A stretch of DNA of 64,000 nt from Mycobacterium sp. OAS707 (GTDB taxonomy: Bacteria > Actinomycetota > Actinomycetes > Mycobacteriales > Mycobacteriaceae): NCBI RefSeq assembly GCF_014873705.1, contig NZ_JADBDS010000001.1, forward strand, positions 1,736,001 through 1,800,000, written 5' to 3'. Position 1 is the stretch's first letter. Every line of letters starts with the position of its first letter. Both the position numbers and the translations under genes were made by a program. Shown here in pieces: positions 6,469-21,025 of this stretch. The notes under the pieces are model-generated. The model had not been told where the DNA came from. It did not search any database and saw nothing but the letters and a program-made list of their open reading frames with translations.

Positions 6469-7832
6469 TTGCCGAGCGGATGACGAGGTTCTGTGTCGCA
6501 GGCCTTCTCGCGACATTGCCCACCTGTTTCGCGCCGCCCGCCGCCGCGGTCACACCGCCGATGGTCGACGATTCGATGCTGCCGAAGCCGGGTCCGCCTG
6601 CGCCACCGCGGCCGACGAAGCAACGGGACCCTTGCGTCGTGGCCGCACCCGCCGGCGACAAGGCTGAGGCTGGACAACTGGCAGGACTGAATCTGCAGCA
6701 GGTCTGGAAGTTCACCCGCGGAGCCGGGCAGACCGTCGCGGTCATCGACACCGGCGTCCAACGTCACCGCCTCCTCCCCCACCTGGTGCCCGGCGGGGAC
6801 TACGTGTCCTCCACCGACGGTACGACCGATTGCGACGGCCACGGCACCATCGTGGCCGGGATCATCGGTGCAGCACCGGATTCAGATGGATCGACATTCA
6901 GCGGCATCGCGCCCGACGCCACCATCGTCAGCATTCGCCAGTCCAGCAACAAGTTTCGGGCAACCGATGATCCATCGGGCTCCGGCTTCGGCGATGTCGA
7001 CACGCTTGCGAGCGCTGTGCGTACCGCTGCCGACATGGGCGCGACCGTGATCAACGTGTCCTCGGTGGCGTGCCTACCCGTGGACAGCGGTTTGGACGAC
7101 CGTCCCCTCGGCGCCGCGTTGGCCTACGCGGTCGACGTGAAGAACGTCGTTGTGGTCGCCGCCGCCGGAAACGTCGGCACCGCCGGTCAATGCCCCGAAC
7201 AGAATCCGGCAACCGATCCGGCCCGCCCGGGCCGACCAGATTGGGATCGGGTGAACGTCGTGGCGAGTCCTGCTTGGTATGACGACTATGTGTTGACGGT
7301 GGGTTCGGTCGATACGCACGGCGCGCCATCAGCGTTCAGCCTTGCCGGGCCCTGGGTGGACGTCGCGGCTCCGGGTGAAGGTGTCGTGTCGTTGGATCCC
7401 GATGGTGAGGGTCTGGTGAGCAGCCTTCCTGCAGCCGGCGATCCGATCCCGATCACGGGTACGAGTTATGCGGCACCAGTGGTGAGCGGCATCGCCGCGC
7501 TGGTGCGGTCGCGCTCGCCCGAACTGACTGCGCGGCAAGTCATGCAGCGCATCAAAGCGACAGCGCATCAGCCCGCCGCCGGTTGGGATCCTGTTGTCGG
7601 GCAAGGGGTTGTCGATGCGACGGCGGCGGTGACGGCCGGTACCACACCTGCCCTGGCAGATGCCCCGTCACGACCCGTCTCCTATCCGAGCCCCGCTCCC
7701 ACTGAGCATCGGGCATATCGGATTTCCGTCGGCGGCGCGGCGGTATGTCTGGCAGTATCCGTCGGCGCAGTCGTGATGACGACAGCGGCGGCACGGCTAC
7801 GACGGTCCGGCAACACTGTCCCGCACGATTGA
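6465..7832 (+). CDS. mycP4: ESX-4 mycosin serine protease MycP4
   Basis: Membrane-anchored subtilisin-like protease that caps the ESX complex on the periplasmic side. A signal peptide covers about residues 1-28 (end APPAAA). The catalytic triad is visible as Asp95 (AVIDTG), His126 (DGHGT) and Ser334 (GTSYAAP), with oxyanion Asn236 (AAGN). A single C-terminal membrane helix (about residues 420-442) ends in RLRRSG. The ATG at 6465 forms an ATGA overlap with eccD4. The last 36 bases overlap the convergent eccB4 3' end. All catalytic residues are intact. Confidence 0.96.
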   Translation: MIAERMTRFCVAGLLATLPTCFAPPAAAVTPPMVDDSMLPKPGPPAPPRPTKQRDPCVVAAPAGDKAEAGQLAGLNLQQVWKFTRGAGQTVAVIDTGVQRHRLLPHLVPGGDYVSSTDGTTDCDGHGTIVAGIIGAAPDSDGSTFSGIAPDATIVSIRQSSNKFRATDDPSGSGFGDVDTLASAVRTAADMGATVINVSSVACLPVDSGLDDRPLGAALAYAVDVKNVVVVAAAGNVGTAGQCPEQNPATDPARPGRPDWDRVNVVASPAWYDDYVLTVGSVDTHGAPSAFSLAGPWVDVAAPGEGVVSLDPDGEGLVSSLPAAGDPIPITGTSYAAPVVSGIAALVRSRSPELTARQVMQRIKATAHQPAAGWDPVVGQGVVDATAAVTAGTTPALADAPSRPVSYPSPAPTEHRAYRISVGGAAVCLAVSVGAVVMTTAAARLRRSGNTVPHD

Positions 7833-9173
7833 CGCCGCTTCCTTGCTCAGCTCCGGTCCGCGTGGCAACCGGGCCAGCACCGGCCAGGGCGCCGGAACGG
7901 GCGGTCCTGGCAGACCCAGCTGCTTCGCAGTGTGTTCGTCGCGAAGACCGAATACGACGCCGGCCTCGGTGACGAAGTAGAGCGAACCGGCGCTCGCGCC
8001 GTCGTCGGCGATGCCGACTGACCGAATGTAGGCGCCGCGACCCCGTGGAATCGAGAAGGCGTCGACGTTCGGACCGTCGCCGTCGGACTGCGCCAGTGTC
8101 AACGAGCTCGCGGGGGCTGGAAGTGAATCACCCACCAGCACAGCTATTTTGGTGTCCGTCACAGTCAGTTGCCATCGGGCACACACCATCGCAGCGGGTG
8201 AGACACCGGCGGTATCCGGATACGTCGAGACTCGAAGCGTGTCGACACCAGGCATGGCCGCGATGACGTCTGGTGTCACCACATCGATGTCACGGTCGTC
8301 CTGTGAGTCGGTGAAGCGGACGAGGTCCGCGGTGACCTGGCCGACCCGCTGCACCCCTGTGGCGAGTACGACATAGTACTCGTCGGCGCCCGCGCGGGCG
8401 ATTCGCACCACGCTGCCGACGGCAAACCCGCGCAGCGGACTCGGTGCGCCCGCACCGGGAATGTGGGGCGCGGCGATGGGCGGCGCTTCGGGTGTCGCGT
8501 CCAGAAGCGTCCGCGAAACCGAGCGAGGGGTGACGCCGTCCAGTTGCAACGCTCGAACGACCGCACGGTTGCGCAGGTCCACCTTGGCCCGCAACCCGGA
8601 ATAGAGCAGATACGTCGAAGCCGCGCTCTCCCCGCGAGCCGTGACGAGAACCGCGGGACCCGTCGCGAGGCCACCTTCGGGCAGCGCTCCGGCGATCACG
8701 GTCGTCTTGGCCGCGTCCTCGCAGACCGCCCAGCCGGATTCGTCCTCTCGCAGCGGCGGCGCGATCTCGGCGGGCGCGCCGGGAATGCCGAGAAGCGGAC
8801 CACGCGTGGAGTTGCTGATGGCCGCCGCGCTCACCGCTTCGGGATTCGCGGGCGTGTCAGCGATCAGGCGCGCGGACGCGAGATTCAGCACTGGATGAAC
8901 GACGTCACCGATGCGGACGTAGAGGGCACCCGATTCCCGCACCACCACTATCGGGGCGCTGCCAAGGTGGTCCGGTGGGCGTAAGAACGCCAGCACCACA
9001 CAGACCGCGACGACGATCGCGGTGATGACGGTGCCTGCGCTCAACGAAAGCGATTGCGCGCGAAGCGGATCGTCGAGCATTCGCACGTCGCCGCGCACCA
9101 GCGCGTGCTCCATCCGGCGCAGCAGGAACCGCTGGCCGCTGACCTGCAGCCGCATAGGTGATTGCCGAGTCAT
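7797..9173 (-). CDS. eccB4: ESX-4 component EccB4
   Basis: Bitopic membrane protein of the ESX-4 complex with a large periplasmic domain. Residues 1-45 are cytoplasmic and basic (MRLQVSGQRFLLRRMEHAL is typical of EccB). One transmembrane helix follows at about 47-66 (TVITAIVVAVCVVLAFL). The remaining roughly 390 residues form the repeat-containing periplasmic domain, ending Pro/Ser-rich. It is convergent with mycP4 and overlaps it by 36 bp. ATG at 9173; 458 residues, the family length. Together with eccC4, eccD4 and mycP4 it completes the ESX-4 core, which naturally lacks EccE, EspG and PE/PPE genes. Confidence 0.95.
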   Translation of the reverse strand: MTRQSPMRLQVSGQRFLLRRMEHALVRGDVRMLDDPLRAQSLSLSAGTVITAIVVAVCVVLAFLRPPDHLGSAPIVVVRESGALYVRIGDVVHPVLNLASARLIADTPANPEAVSAAAISNSTRGPLLGIPGAPAEIAPPLREDESGWAVCEDAAKTTVIAGALPEGGLATGPAVLVTARGESAASTYLLYSGLRAKVDLRNRAVVRALQLDGVTPRSVSRTLLDATPEAPPIAAPHIPGAGAPSPLRGFAVGSVVRIARAGADEYYVVLATGVQRVGQVTADLVRFTDSQDDRDIDVVTPDVIAAMPGVDTLRVSTYPDTAGVSPAAMVCARWQLTVTDTKIAVLVGDSLPAPASSLTLAQSDGDGPNVDAFSIPRGRGAYIRSVGIADDGASAGSLYFVTEAGVVFGLRDEHTAKQLGLPGPPVPAPWPVLARLPRGPELSKEAASIVRDSVAGPS

Positions 9174-10817: not shown

Positions 10818-11825
10818 ATGTCCAACCATTTCACCGGCCTGTCCCTTGGACCGCCGCTCGGCGATCAGCGTCTCGATCTGTGCGATCTCTACGCGTTCGT
10901 TTCGCCCGCCGACCCGGGCCGGACCGTGATCATCATGAATGCCAACCCGCTGGCCGACGCGCTGCACCCCGACGCGATCTACCGGGTCGCGATCGACAAC
11001 GACGGAGATCTGTTGAACGACATAGCTTTCAGCTACGTCTTCTCAGAACCCAAGGACGGCAAGCAGACCGTCGACGTCTACTTGGCGGCCAATGACGAAG
11101 CCGAAGAGGCCGAAGCCGTCGGCGAACGGATCTTCACGAACGTTCCGGTTTCGTTCGTCGGCGACGAGCCCTACATCGCCACCTCAGGCGACTTCACGTT
11201 CTTCGCAGGCGCCCGCAGTGACGCATTCTTCTTCGACTTCGACGGCGTCAAGCAGCTGTTCGACACCTCCGGTAAGCGCAACTTCACCGATCTGACGCTG
11301 CCCGGCGAATCCCCTTGGACCGGAGTCGATTCCAACACCAAGGCCAACGTGTTCTCCACCGCCATCGAGATGCCGACCAGCTTTTTGGGGGCCGACCCCG
11401 ACATCCGGATCTGGGGCCGTTGCAGCGTGCGGAAAAACGGCAGGCTGCTTCACGTCGACCGCGCAGGTCACCCGTCGGTCAGCAGCTTCTTCAATACCGA
11501 CGACACCAAAGAGGAGTACAACGCCAGCGAGCCGGTGCACGACCGGGAGCGGTGGATCGACATGTTCATCCACCAACTGGGCCACACCGGTGACTACTCG
11601 CGCGAGGAAGCCATCGCGGCCATCGACACCGAAGGCACGCTGCCCGACATGTTGACGTTCAACCCGTCGAAGCCGGCGAAGTACCCGAATGGCCGCGTCT
11701 TCACCGACGACGTCATCGACTACCGGCTGGCGTTCCTGACCAAGGGCGAGTGCCCGCCGTCGGGTCTGAGCCCGCACACCGACACCCTGGCGGAGTTCCC
11801 GTACCTCGGACCGCCGCACCAGTGA
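10818..11825 (+). CDS. DUF4331 family protein
   Basis: Protein of unknown function, 335 residues. The sequence begins MSNHFTGLSLGPPLGDQRLDLCDLYAF and continues with alternating beta-type segments, a phosphodiester-like Asp-rich stretch and a conserved DxLNDIAF element, as in the DUF4331 family. There is no signal peptide or membrane segment. The ATG is supported by the conserved N-terminus, although no strong ribosome-binding site is visible. It is divergent from the Rieske/hemerythrin pair, with a perfect palindrome between, so shared regulation is plausible. Its 3' end faces the prenyl synthase gene with a 3-bp gap. Confidence 0.75.
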   Translation: MSNHFTGLSLGPPLGDQRLDLCDLYAFVSPADPGRTVIIMNANPLADALHPDAIYRVAIDNDGDLLNDIAFSYVFSEPKDGKQTVDVYLAANDEAEEAEAVGERIFTNVPVSFVGDEPYIATSGDFTFFAGARSDAFFFDFDGVKQLFDTSGKRNFTDLTLPGESPWTGVDSNTKANVFSTAIEMPTSFLGADPDIRIWGRCSVRKNGRLLHVDRAGHPSVSSFFNTDDTKEEYNASEPVHDRERWIDMFIHQLGHTGDYSREEAIAAIDTEGTLPDMLTFNPSKPAKYPNGRVFTDDVIDYRLAFLTKGECPPSGLSPHTDTLAEFPYLGPPHQ

Positions 11826-11828
11826 CCG

Positions 11829-12881
11829 TCAGCGCCAGCGGGCCCACACATAAGGCACCAAGGCGCGCAGAAAATCGAGATCTGGACCCGGTTGGGCATC
11901 GACGAACGCCTGCTCGAAATACTCCTCGGCGACCAACAGAATGCCTTCGGCGTATTCGGAGGTGAACGCGATGCTGCCGTAGTCGTCCATCAGCGCGCGC
12001 ACCGCGTTCACCATGTCAGCTGATCGTTCGGAACGGTTGCGCCATAAATAGTCTCGAACAAACTCGAGGTCGACGCCCGACGCGTTGGCGAGCAGATGGA
12101 CGAGCGGAAGCGTGCGCTTACCCTCGTACAGATCGCCGAGGATCTCCTTACCGTAGGAACGCTCGTCCCCGACGAGGTTGAGTAGGTCGTCGCGAATCTG
12201 GAAGGCGGCGCCGAAGTGAAACCCGAAGCGCACCAACGGCGCCAGGTCGGCCTTACCGCCTGATCCCACCAATGCGCCGACACGTAGCGGGTGGATCGTG
12301 GTGTACCAGCACGTTTTGTGCATGATCAGCTCGAGGTAGTCGTCGGGCCCTAGATCCTCGACATTGTCGAGTTGCCAGCCGACTTCGATGGCCTGGCCCT
12401 CCAGCGTGCGCATGGCCATGGTGTCGAATTCATGCCACACCAGGTCGGCGAGATCGCCATCCAGTCGCCGGGTCGCCTTTCGCAGCACCTGCCCAGCAAT
12501 GATGGCAAGGCCGTCACCGGCGTTGAGCGCGGCGGCCATGCCGTGCGTTGCGGCAAGCGTCGGTCGGCCACGGCGCATCTCGCTGCCGTCGGCGACGTCG
12601 TCGTGAACCAGAAAAGCGTTGTGCAGCAGTTCAATTGCGACCGCTATACCCATGACAGCTTCGGGCTCTGCGCCGAACGCCCTGCTGGCGGACAGACACA
12701 GCGCGGGCCGCAGCGCCTTGCCCGGCCGCGACGGGTACTCGCGCATCGGCCCGTACAGCCATTGCGCCGGTTCACCGTCCGGCATGGCGTCGAGCATCGC
12801 GCGACGAACCACCTTGGCCACTCCGCGCAGGTGGGCGTCGACCTCAGCGACGAGCTCGGCACGGTCGGCGGTGCTCGTCAC
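11829..12881 (-). CDS. Isoprenyl diphosphate synthase (short-chain, GGPP-type)
   Basis: Condenses isopentenyl diphosphate with allylic diphosphates to make a C15-C20 prenyl diphosphate. The first Asp-rich motif is intact (HDDVADGSEMRRGRPT, about residue 93). The second is DDLLN (about 230), with Asn in place of the last Asp, a variation known in some GGPP synthases. A KR pair after it (YEGKRTLPLV) fits the family. Length 350. The ATG overlaps the stop of the upstream unknown gene (ATGA). No phytoene synthase, terpene cyclase or prenyltransferase lies beside it, so the product's fate is unknown; the FAD oxidase at 18968 is the obvious candidate consumer. Confidence 0.88.
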   Translation of the reverse strand: MTSTADRAELVAEVDAHLRGVAKVVRRAMLDAMPDGEPAQWLYGPMREYPSRPGKALRPALCLSASRAFGAEPEAVMGIAVAIELLHNAFLVHDDVADGSEMRRGRPTLAATHGMAAALNAGDGLAIIAGQVLRKATRRLDGDLADLVWHEFDTMAMRTLEGQAIEVGWQLDNVEDLGPDDYLELIMHKTCWYTTIHPLRVGALVGSGGKADLAPLVRFGFHFGAAFQIRDDLLNLVGDERSYGKEILGDLYEGKRTLPLVHLLANASGVDLEFVRDYLWRNRSERSADMVNAVRALMDDYGSIAFTSEYAEGILLVAEEYFEQAFVDAQPGPDLDFLRALVPYVWARWR

Positions 12882-13564
12882 GGCAGCAGCGATGTGACGG
12901 TCAGTACTACTGGAAGCCAGACGTCGGGATGACCGTCGGCCAGAAGGTTTCCCCGATACACGCCAGGCCGGACGTCCCCGGTCACGTCAACCCCGATCTC
13001 GACGCCTCGACTCGAACGTCGCGGCATAGGAACAGGATTCGGATCGCAGTGCACTGTGGCCGCCGGCACCATGTCGCCGTCGTGGGCCAGTAAATCGCTG
13101 CACCGCAGCCGAATCTCGCCGAGCTGATCGGGACCATTGTTGTGCAGCCACACCTCTGTGCTCGCTCGACCCGGCGCGTCGGCGTGAAGCTCAAGAGTCC
13201 CGTTGCCGCCGGTCCGGCCGAACTCAAGCGTCGCCGGGCCGGCAAATGGCAAATTCGAGAACTTCGCCGAACCCACGAGAAACTGACCCGCCATCGCCCA
13301 CCAGATATTCATCAGTCTCTCGATATCCGGATTGTTTCGCCGGCCGGCGCCATTCTCCTCGGCCAGATCTGCGGCAGAACCCGTGGACGTTTCTCCCGGA
13401 CCTTTGTCATTGATCGCCCCGACGAAGCGGTCGACCAGCTTGCTGGCAGCACGGAAACCCTGGGCCTGGATTGCGTTCAGCGCGCGCACATTGGCGGCCG
13501 GGTCGAAGACCGACGCCCACGGCACCTCCGTTATGTTGCCGTCATCGCCAAAACCCCGGCTCAC
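12878..13564 (-). CDS. Unrecognised protein with helical N-terminus and beta-rich C-terminus
   Basis: No confident family. The 228 residues divide into an amphipathic helical region with the phrase VFDPAANVRALNAIQAQGF (about 18-36), a Gly/Asn-rich linker, and a C-terminal beta-rich domain (about 115-228) ending GVYRGNLLADGHPDVWLPVV, which reads like an immunoglobulin or fibronectin-type fold. No signal peptide. The GTG start has GGGGGAGG eight bases upstream. It is the first gene of a two-gene unit with the prenyl synthase and divergent from the unknown gene at 13649. Its architecture mirrors the 186-residue protein encoded at 15211. Confidence 0.7.
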   Translation of the reverse strand: MSRGFGDDGNITEVPWASVFDPAANVRALNAIQAQGFRAASKLVDRFVGAINDKGPGETSTGSAADLAEENGAGRRNNPDIERLMNIWWAMAGQFLVGSAKFSNLPFAGPATLEFGRTGGNGTLELHADAPGRASTEVWLHNNGPDQLGEIRLRCSDLLAHDGDMVPAATVHCDPNPVPMPRRSSRGVEIGVDVTGDVRPGVYRGNLLADGHPDVWLPVVLTVTSLLP

Positions 13565-13579
13565 CTGCAGATCCTCCCC

Positions 13580-13600
13580 CGCAAATCAGACTGGTTTGCG
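13580..13600. promoter_or_regulatory. Inverted repeat in the divergent promoter of the six-gene locus
   Basis: CGCAAA, nine bases, TTTGCG: a short symmetric element in the 84-bp interval between the two divergent halves of the locus. It could be a shared operator. Arms are only six bases, so chance is not excluded. Confidence 0.3.
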
Positions 13601-13648
13601 TACGCTCCACGGTATGCTAAGCGCGCCAGCGGGGGGTAGGAGGAGCAA

Positions 13649-15214
13649 ATGGCTGTCGGCCATTCTCTGTTAGCGGTGTATGGCGCTTTCGACCAAGTCG
13701 TGATGGAAAACCCGGACAGCCAGGTGCGACAGCAGATCGAGCAGTTTCTGCCGGGCACGACAGGACCGGGCCAACGCGGCTGGTACGCCGAGATTCAGGA
13801 TTTCGTGCGTCGGCATGCGACTGACCCGGCGGCCGCAGAGTTCCCCACCCTCGACGAAGCGCTCGACGAACTCACTGGCGGCGGTGGAGGATTCGACGCC
13901 GCATCACAGGTGATGGGTCCGCGAGAGCGGGCTCGTCTCACTTATGCGACCGCCGCGATGCGAAGCCTGATCGGCACTGACTTGGTACCTCGTGAGCGCA
14001 TCCCCGTGCTCGAGACCGTCGATACGACCCGACTGGACGAGGCCCTCGGCCAGGCTGGCGACGACAACGCGCTGAGCAGTGCCGATTCCGCACCGATGCC
14101 TCGCCATGGTCGCGTGGATCGCCTCAACGAGATGACGCAAGCGTTTACCGGCCGCGGCGACTGGGCCGTCATGATGGCCCAAGCTGCGGACGAGGGCCTG
14201 GTGGCGCCGCAGGTCGCGGCGATCCCCGCGATCTCCGTACACGGCGAGAGCACCGGGCCCGTCGTCCGCATGGACAACGCGCCCGACGCCCTACGTGGGG
14301 AGTATCGGGGCAAGTGCACCGGTGAGGTGATCGAGTCTGATGGCGTCCTGGCCGCGTTGCTCACTACCGAATTCGAGCGGTCAGCTATCAGCATCGACCA
14401 GGTCAAGGCGATAGTCGATCCTCTGAATTGGGACAACTGCAACACCTTCTTCGTCGATATGCAGAAGCTGAAGCCGGCCGCAGGCCGCAGCCAGGTGCTG
14501 GAGTTGGTCAGCACCGACAAGGACCTTTACGTCATCAAGACAGCGCTGAAGTATTGGAAGCAGGAGCGGGGTGGCAGCGCGATTATCAATTACGACCTCG
14601 CTGATAAGCGCAAGGGCACCGGCGACACCGGTCAGGTGCGCGTCGACAGCGGATACATCGTTCTGATCCCAACAAACGACGGCCAGGGCACCCGGGTCCT
14701 CACCAGCAAGATGGTCGCGATCGATGGCCTCAGCCCGACGGCCGTCGCCATCTACGCCTCTGTGCTCGGATGGGTTTCGATCGGCGAAATGATGATGTTC
14801 GACTGTGCACTTAGGGGCGGCGCCCTCCAAGACGCCGATGACGCCCTGGTTCCATGGCAGCTCTCACCTGAGCCTGACCCCGCAGGCCAAGGCTCCAACC
14901 GCGCGTCTGCGACCACGGCATCCGATGATGGCGGAGCTGGCGTGCCTCCTGTCGCGGGAATCCTGATGGCCGAAGCGTCGACCCGGATGGCCGACTTCAT
15001 CGAAAGCACCACGAAGGACGCGGTTGTCATTGCTGACAAGTGGGTCAAGGGCGACCTCTCCGTCAAGGAAATGGTCGACTACACCAGCAAGGTCGGCGCG
15101 CAGCTGGCGAGCGAGCCATGGCGACTGTTGCAGGACATGCTCAACCGTGTTCCGACCCGGCCCGCTGCAGGCAGCCCACCAGCCAACGAACCGCAGGGGG
15201 ATGGTTCGCCATGA
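13649..15214 (+). CDS. Unrecognised protein with SRPBCC-like central region and helical C-terminal module
   Basis: No firm family assignment. Of 521 residues, about 1-120 are helical. About 230-390 read like an SRPBCC/START lipid-binding fold: a helix with IVDPLNWDNCNTFF, then strands ending in DSGYIVLIP, a strand with RVLTSKMV and a terminal helix. About 430-500 form a helical module (ADKWVKGDLSVKEMVDY), followed by a Pro-rich tail. No signal peptide or membrane helix. The ATG has AGGAGG six bases upstream and opens a four-gene operon whose members overlap by 4 bases. A role in binding a hydrophobic product is a reasonable guess given the prenyl synthase next door. Confidence 0.7.
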   Translation: MAVGHSLLAVYGAFDQVVMENPDSQVRQQIEQFLPGTTGPGQRGWYAEIQDFVRRHATDPAAAEFPTLDEALDELTGGGGGFDAASQVMGPRERARLTYATAAMRSLIGTDLVPRERIPVLETVDTTRLDEALGQAGDDNALSSADSAPMPRHGRVDRLNEMTQAFTGRGDWAVMMAQAADEGLVAPQVAAIPAISVHGESTGPVVRMDNAPDALRGEYRGKCTGEVIESDGVLAALLTTEFERSAISIDQVKAIVDPLNWDNCNTFFVDMQKLKPAAGRSQVLELVSTDKDLYVIKTALKYWKQERGGSAIINYDLADKRKGTGDTGQVRVDSGYIVLIPTNDGQGTRVLTSKMVAIDGLSPTAVAIYASVLGWVSIGEMMMFDCALRGGALQDADDALVPWQLSPEPDPAGQGSNRASATTASDDGGAGVPPVAGILMAEASTRMADFIESTTKDAVVIADKWVKGDLSVKEMVDYTSKVGAQLASEPWRLLQDMLNRVPTRPAAGSPPANEPQGDGSP

Positions 15215-15771
15215 CGAATCCGGCAACCAGCAAGCCTGTCGTGCTTGCCGAGTACATGGCAAAGATCTGGGTCAGGATGCTTCGGCGAAGCGGTGCGATC
15301 GCCGAAGATGCTTCCCAAAAGATGTCGGCCGGCAAGTACGGTTACGACGACTACGTACGATCTGTAAGGCAACTCGTCGACGGCAATCTGCTCGACGGCA
15401 TGGAGCTGGCCGAAACGCTTCTTGCCGGTCCCGGATTCAAGTCGGCGGCTAATGTGGCTCGGTCGGACCCGTATCCCGTTGGCCCCTACCAGAACTCCGA
15501 ATACGAAGTGACGGTTACGTCTCCGCTGAGTCGAGGGTTTGGCGACGCCATCCCCGGCGCTCGAATCGGTTTCGAAGCGGTGAAGAGCGGCGAGGACGAC
15601 AGACTGACATCAGGGATCCTTCCAACTGGAACCGAACACTTCCGGCTTGTCGTCGACCGAACCAATCTTCAAAGCGGTTTTTACTTCGGCCAGGTGACGA
15701 TGGTGGCGCGACCCGCGACCAAAGCGGATGCAGGCGACCAGCAAGTCGTGGACGTTGCCATCGGCCTGTGA
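15211..15771 (+). CDS. Unrecognised 186-residue protein with helical module and beta-rich domain
   Basis: Not recognised. About residues 10-65 form a helical module (QKMSAGKYGYDDYVRSVRQL) that resembles the C-terminal module of the preceding protein: a K-x-x-x-G turn followed by an acidic helix with Val. About residues 88-186 form a beta-rich domain (YEVTVTSP...FRLVVDRTNLQSGFYFGQVT), like the C-terminal domain of the 228-residue protein at 12878. The ATG at 15211 overlaps the previous stop (ATGA). A longer open frame upstream lacks this coupling and reads as out-of-frame coding. It is coupled to the cyclase gene by a GTGA overlap. Confidence 0.72.
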   Translation: MTNPATSKPVVLAEYMAKIWVRMLRRSGAIAEDASQKMSAGKYGYDDYVRSVRQLVDGNLLDGMELAETLLAGPGFKSAANVARSDPYPVGPYQNSEYEVTVTSPLSRGFGDAIPGARIGFEAVKSGEDDRLTSGILPTGTEHFRLVVDRTNLQSGFYFGQVTMVARPATKADAGDQQVVDVAIGL

Positions 15772-18700
15772 CTGATCACGTTAATCAGCCGAGTATCGAC
15801 GAGCTGCTGGACCGGGCCGTCGACGCGATCAACAGCGGAGATCGCGCAGCGGCGGACGCATTGGCCGGTCAGGTGCTCGACCTCGACCGAACCAACAGCG
15901 ACGCCGAAGAGCTGCTGGCGGCGCCGTCTGGACACGGCGAGATCCGGCGAATAACGATCCTGTTCGCGGATCTGGTCGGCTCGACGGCACTGTCGACCCG
16001 GGTCGAGCCCGAGATCTATCGCACCGTCGTTGGTCGCTACCGCGACGAAGTGCGCAGCATCGTCGAACAGTACGAGGGCTACATCGGTGCTACGAAGGGT
16101 GACGGACTCCTCGCTGTGTTCGGCCATCCCCAGGCGCACGAAAACGACGTGCAGCGCTCGGCATCGGCCGCGATCGACATCATCCGCTCCGTATCGGATC
16201 TGAGCGATCGTGTGCGGCAGCAATTCGGTTTCGGGATCGATGTGCGGGTGGGCATTCACCGTGGAGTCGTTTACCTGGATACCGCACAACTTGACGTCTA
16301 CGGATTCGCGGCCAATCTGGCGGAGCGGATGTGTGGTCTCGCCGACCCCGGAACCGTCGCCGTGTCGGACTCGATTGAGCCGCTGATTCGCGACAGCTTC
16401 GAACTAGAAGCGCAACTGCCCGAACGGGTCAAGGGAGTGGAGGGCTTGGTCCGGCACTTCCGCATCATCGGTGAGCGCGAAGTGTCCAAGGTGGTGCTCG
16501 GCCCGTTGATCGGCCGCCGCAGCCAGATCGCTTATCTGACGGACCGCTGGGACGAGGCGCAATCGGGTGGCCTTCGGACCCCGGGCGTGGTGCTTCAGGG
16601 AGAGGCGGGGATCGGGAAGAGCCGGCTTGCCTGGGCGGCAGTCGAGATGGCCGAGCGGTCGAATGCCATGGTGCTCCAACTGATTGGATCGCCTTTCCAT
16701 TCGGACGTGGGCCTGTGGCCGGTACGCCGACTGCTCGAGCGGCGATGCCGCATCAGCCGCACGTCAGATCCAACAGAGCGCCTTGAGCATCTCGAAGCCG
16801 AGATCCGGCGGCAGTCGCTGAATCCGGCGACGGTAGTCCCACTCCTGGCACCTGTACTTGGCATCGATGCGCGATACGGCTACGAACAGGTGCACGCGGA
16901 GGGCAGAGCGCTCTACGAGCAGATCGTCGCCGCGGTCTGCAACTATCTCGTCGCATGTATGCGCGATGGTCCCGTGTTGCTACTTGTGGAAGACATGCAC
17001 TGGTTCGATGAAGACAGTGCTGAACTGGTGAATTCCTTGCTGGACACCGACCTCGGCGGCCGCATGCTAATGGTCATGACCGGGCGGGATTTAGCATCGT
17101 TACCCGACAGTCCCAAAGCTCGGGTCTTTCATCTGAACCCGTTGACCGACGATGAGTCGGATGAGTTGATAGTCGCGCTTCATCCTGAGATGACTACGGA
17201 TACCCGCGGGGCGGTACGTCGGCGTTGTGACGGAATCCCGCTCTACATCGAGGAAGTCGTGGCGAAGCTGAAGGATCAGCAGACTGATGCGGCAGAAAGC
17301 GTCGGGGTGCCCGACACCCTTTATGAAGCGCTGATCGCGCGGCTGCGGTCCAGCGCGGATGCCGTGCTCGTTGGCGAGGCCGCCGCCGTCATCGGCGGCC
17401 GCATCGACCGAGGCCTTCTGTTATCTGTCGTCGACCTTGACCCGCAGCACGCAGACCGCGTCCTACGCGAACTCACCGACGGTCGGGTTCTCGAGCCGCT
17501 CGATGAGCACAGCTGGCGGTTCCGGCACGAACTGATACGCGAAGTCGCGGCCGAACTTTCGCCGCCGAGTCTCCGTCGGCGACTGCATAGCCGGGTCGCC
17601 GATGCCCTCGCCGCCGCCAGCGACACCAACCCCGACTGGCCATTGGTGGCACGGCATTACGAGCACGCAGAGCGGTACGCAGAAGCAGCGAAGGCCTTTC
17701 GGCAAGCGTCGACAGACGCGCGGCGCCGAGGCGCGCTCGGCGAGGCCCGCACGTATCTTGGCCACGCGGTCGAACAGGCCGAGCGCTCACCGGCCGGGCA
17801 GGACCGAGATCAGCTCGAGATCGCTCTCCGCCTCAGGCGCGGCTTTCTCGTCTCGGCAGCGGAAGGCGTGGCGAGCCCGAACGCCGCCGCCGACTTCGAA
17901 CGGTGTCTTCAGTTGTCCAGCAGTCATTTGGCTGACGACGAGTTCTTCTCCACGTTGGTCGCGCTGTACGGCTACTACGCGATGCGCGCCGATCTCGACC
18001 GAGTGGAACGACTGCTGCAATCCGTACGAGCGAGTTTGACCGGGCGGCGCAAGTGGTTTCTGCCCTATAACGACGCCGGATTCGGCATGCTGGCTTGGTA
18101 CCGCGGCGATTTCGACACTGCGCGCGAGAGGCTCGAAGGAGCCGCGTCATCACGAAACGAAGAAGGAGCAAAGGAACTCGAGGCGGTCTGGTTCATGCCC
18201 AATGAGGGGACGGCATCGATCTACACACATCTCGCGCTGGCCTACTACATCCAGGGTGACTTGGCCAGCGCCGAGGCTGAACTGGAGCGGACCGAACGCC
18301 GATGCGAGGCACTCGCGTTTCCCCAAGGCGCGTTCAGTTTGGCGTATGCCCGCCAGATGGAGGTGCTGATCCGGATGGAAGCCGGCCAACTGGATCGCGC
18401 GATGCAGGTCGCCACCGCACTGGCCAACGGCGGTATGCAACACGGCTTCGACTCATGGGCAATGGTCGGCGCCGCACAGCAATCGATGATCAGCGCACTG
18501 TCGTCGCTCGCCAGCGACGCGGTTGACCCGGCAGAGTTACAGATGCACATCGCGACCATCACCTCCTATGTCGACCTGTGGCGTGCGTTGGCCGTCAGGT
18601 CACTCATCACGATCTATGACGCGGCGCTGGCCCGCCTGCTGACCGCGGCCGGTCAGCGCGATGCCGCGCGCGATCGTTTGCAGATCGCGCTGCAACTCGC

Positions 18701-18971
18701 CGATGAGACAGGTATGCATTTCTATGACGCCGAGTTGTTGCGGTTGCGCGCCCACACGACCGACGACTTGGATTCGCGTCGAGCGGACTTGAGCGCCGCC
18801 GCAGACCTGGCGCGCCGTCAGGCCGCGACCATCTTCGAATTGCGCATTGCCGCAGACAGTTTCGAACTCCATGCCGACTCGGCGCATCAGATGCTGATCG
18901 ACGCGCTCGCACGCTTTCCGCAGGGCAGTACCTGGCCCGAACTGACCCGCGCCCGGGCACTTCTCGGGTGA
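15768..18971 (+). CDS. Class III nucleotidyl cyclase-AAA ATPase-TPR signalling protein
   Basis: Large 1067-residue signalling protein. About residues 60-225 form a class III cyclase domain with metal-binding Asp in FADLVGST and in KGDGLLAVFG, and transition-state Asn/Arg in NLAER. The usual purine-selecting Lys three residues before the GD is replaced (ATKGDG), so nucleotide output is uncertain. An AAA/STAND ATPase follows (Walker A GEAGIGKSR about 283, Walker B LLLVEDMHWFDE). The C-terminal 450 residues are TPR-like helices. No LuxR HTH is present at the end, unlike several mycobacterial relatives. GTG start in a GTGA overlap with the 186-residue gene. It probably regulates the co-translated oxidase or the unknown proteins. 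Confidence 0.88.
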   Translation: MTDHVNQPSIDELLDRAVDAINSGDRAAADALAGQVLDLDRTNSDAEELLAAPSGHGEIRRITILFADLVGSTALSTRVEPEIYRTVVGRYRDEVRSIVEQYEGYIGATKGDGLLAVFGHPQAHENDVQRSASAAIDIIRSVSDLSDRVRQQFGFGIDVRVGIHRGVVYLDTAQLDVYGFAANLAERMCGLADPGTVAVSDSIEPLIRDSFELEAQLPERVKGVEGLVRHFRIIGEREVSKVVLGPLIGRRSQIAYLTDRWDEAQSGGLRTPGVVLQGEAGIGKSRLAWAAVEMAERSNAMVLQLIGSPFHSDVGLWPVRRLLERRCRISRTSDPTERLEHLEAEIRRQSLNPATVVPLLAPVLGIDARYGYEQVHAEGRALYEQIVAAVCNYLVACMRDGPVLLLVEDMHWFDEDSAELVNSLLDTDLGGRMLMVMTGRDLASLPDSPKARVFHLNPLTDDESDELIVALHPEMTTDTRGAVRRRCDGIPLYIEEVVAKLKDQQTDAAESVGVPDTLYEALIARLRSSADAVLVGEAAAVIGGRIDRGLLLSVVDLDPQHADRVLRELTDGRVLEPLDEHSWRFRHELIREVAAELSPPSLRRRLHSRVADALAAASDTNPDWPLVARHYEHAERYAEAAKAFRQASTDARRRGALGEARTYLGHAVEQAERSPAGQDRDQLEIALRLRRGFLVSAAEGVASPNAAADFERCLQLSSSHLADDEFFSTLVALYGYYAMRADLDRVERLLQSVRASLTGRRKWFLPYNDAGFGMLAWYRGDFDTARERLEGAASSRNEEGAKELEAVWFMPNEGTASIYTHLALAYYIQGDLASAEAELERTERRCEALAFPQGAFSLAYARQMEVLIRMEAGQLDRAMQVATALANGGMQHGFDSWAMVGAAQQSMISALSSLASDAVDPAELQMHIATITSYVDLWRALAVRSLITIYDAALARLLTAAGQRDAARDRLQIALQLADETGMHFYDAELLRLRAHTTDDLDSRRADLSAAADLARRQAATIFELRIAADSFELHADSAHQMLIDALARFPQGSTWPELTRARALLG

Positions 18972-21025
18972 AGCGGCCGAGAGAAAAGGTCGTCGTCTTC
19001 GGCGGCGGGATGGCCGCGTTGAGCGCTGCATGGCGCCTCAGCGAAGCCGGATGGCGCGACCGCTTCGAATCGATCACCGTGTACCAACGAGGATGGCGCC
19101 TTGGCGGCAAGGGCGCATCCAGCCGCGGTGCCAACGGCCGCATCGAGGAGCACGGTTTACACATTTGGCTCGGATCCTACGAGAACGCTTTCGCGCTTCT
19201 GCGTGACTGCTATGCCGAACTCGACAGGGCAACAACCGATCCCGGCGCGCCGATCCACACCTGGGATCAAGCGATGCTTCCTGCCGACAATTTGGGCCTT
19301 GCTGACCAGTGGGGCGACGATTGGTTGACCTGGCTGGGCACGTTCAGCAGAAACAGCCGGCTGCCAGGCGATCAGGACGGCAACGGTCGCGAGATGACCG
19401 TGGTGGGATTCGTGCAACGCGCGGTGCAGCTCGTGCTCGACTTCGCGGACTCGCAACGAGACGCGACGCCCGTCGGCCTCGCAATGACAACAGCGCCATA
19501 CGCTCCGGGCAGTTGGATCGCAACGGTGCAACGCGCGCTGATCGCGGCCATGCTGACGCTTCCCAATCCACACACCCTCGAAACCACCCCCGTCAAGCTC
19601 TTCGAGCATGCGATGGACGCCATCCGCTGCGCCATCGACTATGACCACCGCCCCGACCACAAACGGTCCTGGTTGTTGATATCGCTCGTCACCTCGGTGG
19701 TCCGCGGCATCATCGTCGACAACCTGGTCACGGATCCGCGCGGCTTCCGCGCCATCAACGACGAGGATTTCGGGCAGTGGATCCTTCGCCATGGCGGACA
19801 CCCTGACGTACTCGAGTTTCCGTTGGTGCGTGGTGTTTACGATCTGGTGTTCGGTTACGAAGAAGCCGATCCCGAACGACCAGCCGTCGCAGCGGGTTTG
19901 ATGATCTTCCTCATCGGTCTGGTGTTGTTCGAGTACAAGGGCGCGATCTTCTGGAAGATGTCTGCGGGAATGGGCGACGTCGTAATCGCACCGCTCTATC
20001 AGGCCTTGCGCCGGCGCGGAGTGGAGTTCGAGTTCTTTCATCGGCTCGACGCGTTGCATCTTGACGCCAACCACCACGCCATCGGAGCGATAACCATTGG
20101 TCGGCAGGTGCGCCTGGCCGGCGGCCGCCGCCATTACGAACCGCTGTCGACCGTTCGTGGGCTTCCCGTATTCCCCGACGCGCCGATCGCCGAACAAATC
20201 GAGCCTCGGCCGGGCATCAAGGACCTCGAATCGCACTTCGGCGACCGCAACGACATCGAGACACGGGTCCTTAAGCGCGGCAAGGATTTCGATCAGGTGG
20301 TGCTCGCCGTGTCGCTCGGCATGATCCCCGTCGTCGCCGATGAACTCATCCGCGATCGACCCGAATGGCGGGAAATGATCAGCCACGTCCGTACTGTCGC
20401 GACGCAGGCATTTCAGATGTGGCTTCAGCCATCCGAACCCGCTCTCGGGTGGCAGGAGCCAGGCGTCACGATCAGCGCCTACCTGAGGCCGTTCGAAACC
20501 TGGGCCTCAATGCCGCAAACGCTGTGGGCAGAGGATTGGCCAGACGACACTCGGCCGGGCACGGTGGCCTACTTCTGCGGCAGCCTCAACGCACCTTGGC
20601 CCGTCACCGAGGAGCCCGACGCATACGTAGAGAGGCATGTGCGCTCAGTGCTCGCACAGGCAACTGCATACGTCGACGCCAACCTCGGCCTCTACTTCCC
20701 CAACGCCGTCGGCGATACAGGGTTCGCGTGGCACCTGCTCTGCGGCGCGGACGGTCAACGCGGTCGCTCGGCGATGGCTACCCAGCACGTCAGCGTGAAC
20801 ATCGATCCGTCAGATCGGTATGTGCAGTCGGTGCCCGGTTCCGATCGGTACCGTCTGCGGCCCGACGAAAGCGGTTACGACAATCTGGTGCTGGCGGGCG
20901 ACTGGACCGATTGCGGTATGAATGCCGGCTGCATCGAGGCCGCCGTCATGTCTGGCCTGCAGGCTGCCAACGCGCTGCTCGCCCGCGGCCGGTATCACCG
21001 CATCCGCGGTTTCTACCTACCTTGA
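18968..21025 (+). CDS. FAD-dependent amine oxidase/desaturase-like protein
   Basis: Flavoprotein of the phytoene desaturase/amine oxidase/hydroxysqualene dehydroxylase superfamily, 685 residues. The N-terminal dinucleotide-binding fold has FGGGMAALSAAWRL (about 12-25), followed by YQRGWRLGGKGAS, the usual FAD-contacting turn. The C-terminal FAD motif is LVLAGDWTDCGMNAGCIEAA (about 638-657). The central substrate domain is long and includes hydrophobic helices (LMIFLIGLVLFEYKG), suggesting a lipid substrate. The GTG start overlaps the cyclase stop (GTGA). With the prenyl synthase this suggests oxidation of an isoprenoid, but the substrate is unproven and crtI or hpnE should not be assigned. 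Confidence 0.85.
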   Translation: MKRPREKVVVFGGGMAALSAAWRLSEAGWRDRFESITVYQRGWRLGGKGASSRGANGRIEEHGLHIWLGSYENAFALLRDCYAELDRATTDPGAPIHTWDQAMLPADNLGLADQWGDDWLTWLGTFSRNSRLPGDQDGNGREMTVVGFVQRAVQLVLDFADSQRDATPVGLAMTTAPYAPGSWIATVQRALIAAMLTLPNPHTLETTPVKLFEHAMDAIRCAIDYDHRPDHKRSWLLISLVTSVVRGIIVDNLVTDPRGFRAINDEDFGQWILRHGGHPDVLEFPLVRGVYDLVFGYEEADPERPAVAAGLMIFLIGLVLFEYKGAIFWKMSAGMGDVVIAPLYQALRRRGVEFEFFHRLDALHLDANHHAIGAITIGRQVRLAGGRRHYEPLSTVRGLPVFPDAPIAEQIEPRPGIKDLESHFGDRNDIETRVLKRGKDFDQVVLAVSLGMIPVVADELIRDRPEWREMISHVRTVATQAFQMWLQPSEPALGWQEPGVTISAYLRPFETWASMPQTLWAEDWPDDTRPGTVAYFCGSLNAPWPVTEEPDAYVERHVRSVLAQATAYVDANLGLYFPNAVGDTGFAWHLLCGADGQRGRSAMATQHVSVNIDPSDRYVQSVPGSDRYRLRPDESGYDNLVLAGDWTDCGMNAGCIEAAVMSGLQAANALLARGRYHRIRGFYLP

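Follow-up and report, generated by a model that had tools for sequence, protein, structure and literature searches.

Steroid Δ24-desaturase and the limonene dehydrogenase CtmAB are flavoenzymes that act beside isoprenoid double bonds and are described with the covalent-flavin motif G-F-L/R-x-N/S-T/L-H-A (PMC11061730). Other systems close to one part or another of the locus described here are the hydroxysqualene dehydroxylase HpnE and plant-type phytoene desaturases, the polyprenyl transferases that are the cargo of Family 2 encapsulins, the kinase/cyclase fusion proteins of TOMM systems, and the START proteins STARD4/6 and 3qsz of Xanthomonas. The locus lies in a window of 64,000 nucleotides from Mycobacterium sp. 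OAS707 (contig NZ_JADBDS010000001.1, positions 1,736,001 to 1,800,000), in which six genes, IDS, U2, U3, U4, CYC and FAD, form two divergent units. We hold with moderate confidence that these constitute one co-inherited module that makes, oxidises and carries an isoprenoid, with a nucleotide cyclase reporting the state of the pathway. As judged by title and the start of the abstract, none of the matches listed from the open-licence literature describes this gene set, and we judge it to be an undescribed type of isoprenoid locus assembled from known enzyme families.

FAD is of the same flavoprotein type as HpnE and plant-type phytoene desaturase, with N-terminal GxGxxG-like and C-terminal GDW motifs in common, but it scores 80.8 bits against the HpnE model TIGR03467, under the cut-off of 283 and thus outside that family; the six genes include no phytoene/squalene synthase and show no association with one in the genus. 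Like FAD, CtmAB and the Δ24-desaturase are flavoenzymes, whereas they have two subunits (63 and 57 kDa in the desaturase) and a covalent-flavin histidine motif, which has no match in the window's FAD; identity with either was rejected on this ground. CYC has the cyclase followed by AAA and repeats of the TOMM-system fusion proteins (TIGR03903), against which it scores 286 bits, but the cut-off is 706, the match runs from profile position 283, and CYC is co-inherited with an isoprenoid-type gene set. Residues 197-395 of U3 have a predicted fold in common with STARD4/6 and 3qsz at 5-11% identity, while U3 differs in matching no Pfam START family, in its extra helical ends and in its Ig-like partner.

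The best-scoring curated relatives of IDS, and its top match in NCBIfam, are the Family 2 encapsulin cargo polyprenyl transferases (NF041169, 186 bits). This raises the idea that the proteins build a compartment akin to a Family 2 encapsulin and enclose the prenyl synthase in it, which we regard as highly improbable: the score lies far under the cut-off of 450 and places IDS outside the family, its partner is U2, and none of the six proteins matches an encapsulin or other capsid family. The Family 2A profile also found no match in the host genome, a search in which the control genomes were silent too and which did not extend to Family 2B.

Layout and co-inheritance of the six genes

All six open reading frames given in the preliminary description are present in the window sequence. 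On the minus strand lie IDS (11829..12881, 350 residues, GTG start) and U2 (12878..13564, 228 residues), which overlap in a GTGA at 12878-12881. On the plus strand follow U3 (13649..15214, 521 residues), U4 (15211..15771, 186 residues), CYC (15768..18971, 1067 residues) and FAD (18968..21025, 685 residues), with an ATGA overlap between U3 and U4 (15211-15214) and GTGA overlaps between U4 and CYC (15768-15771) and between CYC and FAD (18968-18971). Both the four-base junctions and the 84-bp gap between the units (13565-13648, no strand) are as they had been described. Pfam likewise agrees with the kinds of protein proposed, namely a polyprenyl synthase, a class III cyclase with AAA_16 and sub-threshold TPR, and an amine-oxidase-type flavoprotein, and with the view that three proteins have no family: U3 and U4 match none and U2 only sub-threshold families.

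In a sample of 198 genomes of the genus, FAD (counted at E 1e-30) and U2 (at E 1e-06) each occur in 43. The preliminary description was to be refuted if the unknown genes were found scattered without the synthase and oxidase; for U2 this is not so, as it is found together with the oxidase in 42 of its 43 genomes. A close IDS (at least 76% identity) is present in 42 genomes. A second kind of polyprenyl synthase, with at most 46% identity to IDS, is the only one in 22 further genomes of the genus that are free of the module (G158, G017, G160 and 19 others); it is possibly of the encapsulin-cargo type. FAD stands without U2 in G094, on an 8-kb contig of a genome that is 73% complete, and in G196 U2 is reduced to a piece of 37 positions. 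The G196 locus (L148, about 7459-8007) is a scar that retains the final residues of IDS (19 residues), U2 (35) and CYC (92) and adjoins ABATE and EamA, the right-hand neighbours of the window locus. Because these ends remain beside the same neighbours, the module was deleted in place in this genome.

We fetched 41 FAD loci from the 42 FAD-bearing genomes besides the host, leaving aside G065, where FAD is at a contig end and the synthase-side contig carries IDS, U2 and U3. Profile searches find U3 and U4 in all 41 loci, FAD in 40, IDS and U2 in 39 and CYC in 38; with tblastn the numbers are 41 for FAD and 40 for a CYC relative of any kind. Contig ends are reached in three loci (L042, L043, L062), and the two distant oxidases L034 and L035, which lack synthase and U2, are excluded from the mycobacterial counts. 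Ten genomes recovered by a search with U3 coincide with the FAD-bearing genomes numbered G036 or below. The order IDS and U2 leftward, then U3, U4, CYC and FAD rightward, is kept in 33 of 41 loci, and FAD precedes CYC in L020, L046 and L059. Since the genes stay grouped across the genus, the arrangement is beyond chance. ABATE lies inside the fetched stretch of 20 of the 41 loci, so that only about half of them are shown to occupy one chromosomal site. Across the genus loci, the median identity to the window is 80% for IDS, 66% for FAD, 54% for CYC and 48% for U2, falling to 28% for U3 and 27% for U4, the last from short and partly weak alignments. The enzymes are conserved while the START and small proteins diverge fast, and the latter may be structural or may adapt to a ligand.

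The module is not peculiar to this genome; its relatives occur in other Actinomycetota, in Myxococcota and in Proteobacteria-type records. All counts outside the genus derive from scanning a single genome of each species with the oxidase alignment and taking the best 80 of 161 relatives; 40 of these lie outside Mycobacteriaceae-titled records, some on stretches that end at contig ends. They include, within Actinomycetota, Pedococcus, Ornithinibacter, Ornithinimicrobium, Blastococcus, Solirubrobacter, Acidimicrobiia and a metagenome-assembled genome of Pseudonocardia, and beyond it Myxococcota, Novosphingobium, Rhizobium and others. Pedococcus cremeus (L069) carries every kind of gene in the set, whereas Novosphingobium sediminis NBRC 106119 (L125) has the oxidase, a U2-family protein and the synthase but yielded no START relative. 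IDS is present in 20 of the 40, a CYC that spans 60% or more of the profile in 21, and START relatives in 11, or 10 without L134, a weak match to the helical tail that misses the START part. A U2-family protein accompanies IDS in all 20 loci, found in 13 by the mycobacterium-seeded U2 profile (two weakly) and in seven by a wider, iterated profile only. The wider profile was built from five non-actinobacterial seed proteins in three iterations, so that drift is possible, and its match to U2 by hhalign is circular, the U2 rows being already included. In a phylum sample of 396 genomes FAD was found in six at E 1e-20; three of the six belong to other genera, and two of these three (L034, L035) have no synthase or U2 near the oxidase; a search of genome contigs with U3 alone gave no match. 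Near the oxidase in loci outside Actinomycetota, saccharopine-dehydrogenase-like genes were seen in L125, L107 and L121, acetoacetate-decarboxylase-like genes in L125 (weak), L115 and L132, and a methyltransferase gene in L115.

Within the divergent gap the octamer TATGCTAA (13613-13620, plus strand) is likely the -10 element of the U3-U4-CYC-FAD unit, by its recurrence: 16 of the 39 relatives, some of which are nearly identical, have it upstream of U3, and it occurs 17 times on both strands in the 711,872 bases of those relatives' loci. Inspection of the sequence points to AGGAGGAG (13638-13645, plus strand) as the likely ribosome-binding site of U3. Scans for sigma-70 promoters and terminators gave no excess over shuffles. 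A near-perfect 19-bp palindrome (13581-13599, eight of nine arm pairs) also lies in the gap; it does not recur as such in the relatives scanned, and equally good arms occur elsewhere in four. The locus is flanked on the left by type VII secretion genes (EccB, EccD, an FtsK/SpoIIIE ATPase and a subtilase) and on the right by two cutinases; the preliminary description likewise names cutinase genes on one side, and the label ESX-4 for the other side is its own. A DUF4331 gene (10818-11825) on the opposite strand ends three bases short of the IDS stop codon. It was considered as a seventh member and rejected, and is placed outside the conserved module because tblastn with DUF4331 found no copy in 44 loci.

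The synthase and the oxidase

IDS matches PF00348 at 189 bits, against a cut-off of 27, and belongs to the polyprenyl diphosphate synthases of the all-trans kind. In an alignment of 93 rows, 75 of them distinct and some loci entered twice, the first aspartate motif DDxxD is present in every row; the second reads DDLLN in the window, its DD being kept in 93 rows and DDxxN in 91. A phenylalanine at position -4 is indicative of a short chain in this family, and as IDS has one there in 85 of 93 rows, its product is suggested to be C15-C20. In one locus (L021, G009, contig C1 4730383-4731425) the synthase is broken over two frames, by damage to the gene or by a sequencing error.

FAD matches PF01593 (7.6e-14) and PF13450 (2.9e-10) and, in an alignment of 126 rows (106 distinct), shows a conserved dinucleotide motif, the motif EEHG and, close to its end, GDW...NAGC...E. 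A sequence search of the PDB with the oxidase profile gave no match at 1e-05. The stretch 305-323 is hydrophobic (hydropathy 2.02), which makes membrane association of FAD likely. In its resemblance to HpnE and phytoene desaturases lies the case for an oxidase whose substrates are carotenoid, hopanoid or squalene intermediates supplied by other parts of the genome, with the locus as an accessory. The host does have, besides six polyprenyl synthase matches, one phytoene/squalene synthase elsewhere; it lies on contig C6, where another prenyl synthase is about 2 kb away. The preliminary description had noted that the locus itself has no such enzyme, and Pfam indeed finds none among the six genes, three neighbours or ten further flanking open reading frames. 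Across the genus PF00494 (phytoene/squalene synthase, E 1e-10) is matched in 30 of 43 genomes with the module and, at the same rate, in 111 of 155 without it, and 13 of the 43 have no match at all; the module is therefore independent of phytoene and squalene. We therefore consider an accessory role quite unlikely, and phytoene, squalene or another head-to-head isoprenoid is not a likely substrate.

The allylic chemistry of CtmAB and the Δ24-desaturase (PMC11061730, PMC4109377) could also be read as pointing to degradation or detoxification of environmental isoprenoids, and the oxidase family occurs in two or three tandem copies in the distant relatives L132, L135 and L145. Against breakdown stand the prenyl synthase within the module, with its metal-binding residues, the missing covalent-flavin motif in FAD, and the fact that Pfam finds no CoA ligase or beta-oxidation enzyme among the six proteins. 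We rate breakdown as very unlikely.

The START protein and its small partners

A structure model of U3 predicts a START domain over residues of about 197-395, preceded by a helical N-terminus and followed by a C-terminal helical hairpin (435-499) of low confidence. The model has the helix-grip fold with long START topology, and its top structural matches are long START proteins spanning the same residues, while a Pfam scan of 27 U3 members at E up to 10 found no START family. On the model, U3 is predicted to be a START-domain lipid carrier. The same domain would fit a secondary-metabolite cluster in which it is an aromatase/cyclase-type enzyme, the prenylated product is exported and the CYC protein is a regulator. 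Against this, the top structural matches are to long START proteins spanning 197-395, and none of the six proteins has a polyketide, peptide-synthetase or export family match in Pfam, so that such a cluster seems unlikely.

U2 is predicted by AlphaFold to consist of a helical hairpin (residues 22-52 and 79-103) and an Ig-like sandwich (111-225), the latter with a predicted local distance difference test (pLDDT) score of at least 95 in most 10-residue blocks, and the model finds matches in the PDB. The N-terminal, Ig-like family of GH123 is matched by 40 of 50 U2 members at E up to 1 (best 8.9e-07), and by the window's U2 at 0.059. U4 of the window has no Pfam family. With larger alignments its C-terminal part resembles U2 (hhalign E 7e-05, probability 63), a comparison that was uninformative with small ones; it likely comprises helices and an Ig-like domain.

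Fusions link these proteins to their partners. In L033, an actinobacterial metagenome-assembled genome (L068 is the same contig), U2 and IDS form one open reading frame of 548 residues and the START protein has a U4-like tail; in L017, U3 and U4 are a single frame of 676 residues; and the wider U2-family profile recognises the tails of the START proteins in L069, L070, L075 and L076. L046 (G190) carries a duplicated U3-U4 pair, one on each side of U2. From the fusions and this duplication, U4 is likely a distant relative of U2, with U2 linked to the synthase and U4 to the START protein. A reading of these proteins as phasins was set aside, no Pfam phasin match being found in 11 U4, 27 U3 and 50 U2 members. 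For U2, U3 and U4 the best amphipathic-helix scores (0.58-0.67, near the 99th percentile of those in CYC) are each the highest among dozens of windows, and no weight was placed on them.

The cyclase and the proposed pathway

CYC matches PF00211 (3.3e-20) and PF13191 (3.1e-19), with TPR below threshold. The catalytic residues of a class III nucleotide cyclase are intact in the window; in an alignment of 100 rows (82 distinct) D, D, N and R are kept in 94, 95, 89 and 94, residues that we take to be the two metal-binding aspartates and the transition-state asparagine and arginine. The Walker residues are kept in most rows. Matches of the cyclase domain to PycC models (best 1.8e-12) bring to mind an anti-phage signalling system of the Pycsar kind, but they are confined to that domain, none of the remaining five proteins has a defence-model match at E 0.01 or supplies an effector, and the synthase and oxidase look metabolic; we find such a system scarcely credible.

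A Crp-type gene, which could respond to a cyclic nucleotide, directly follows CYC in L138 and L141, and in L118 such a gene (confirmed by Pfam) comes after IDS. In L033/L068 it precedes the START gene, in L119 it adjoins FAD where the contig ends, and in L073 it lies on the opposite strand, about 1 kb beyond IDS.

In the pathway that we favour, IDS would likely make a short all-trans prenyl diphosphate, and FAD, likely membrane-associated, is predicted to oxidise an isoprenoid formed from this diphosphate, perhaps by desaturating or otherwise oxidising an allylic position. The greasy product would be handed to the predicted START-domain carrier U3, and U2 and U4 may be scaffold proteins that keep the carrier close to the synthase at a lipid surface. 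CYC is predicted to signal the pathway's state with a cyclic nucleotide, which might act through Crp-type regulators, whose genes neighbour the module in a few other lineages. The preliminary description had proposed a regulated isoprenoid pathway with the unknown proteins as carrier, scaffold or sensor. As far as sequence can tell, these roles are borne out by the START domain in the U3 model, the U2-synthase fusion and the catalytic residues of CYC; the six genes stand as a co-inherited unit whose proposed chemistry is that of an isoprenoid.

Several observations weigh against this pathway. The unit is co-inherited across the genus, as had been claimed, but is not rigidly six: L056 has no adjacent CYC, and in L065 the CYC relative is distant and on the opposite strand. 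Only 54 of 126 FAD relatives pass the hydropathy mark of 1.6. The START fold is common to carriers, sensors and polyketide cyclases. The U2-IDS fusion is known from one metagenome assembly only. No Crp-type gene was found in the mycobacterial loci and no Crp-type palindrome was seen in the 84-bp gap, and the six Crp genes among 40 loci outside Mycobacteriaceae are a raw count without a chance control. Half of the outside loci (20 of 40) have no synthase in the fetched stretch; the Rhizobium loci L142, L143 and L146 and those of Rhodobacterales hold oxidase and CYC with no synthase found there. Because oxidase and cyclase occur without a synthase outside Actinomycetota, the oxidase may not always serve an IDS-type synthase.

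A bolder form of the same pathway, which we think doubtful, is a self-regulated isoprenoid assembly body. The synthase would be docked by the hairpin/Ig protein on a lipid surface coated with U2 and U4, a membrane-associated desaturase would oxidise the chain, the START protein would store or move the product, and CYC would turn the state of the body into a second messenger; the product would be a new isoprenoid class that spans several phyla.

Three unannotated protein families, one of them with 921 homologues at E 0.001, gain a common context from this module. With one mycobacterial nucleotide cyclase tied to a definite gene set, what CYC reports on becomes a testable question. The module also serves as a pointer to a class of isoprenoid product made without phytoene/squalene synthase, in mycobacteria and in distant bacteria.

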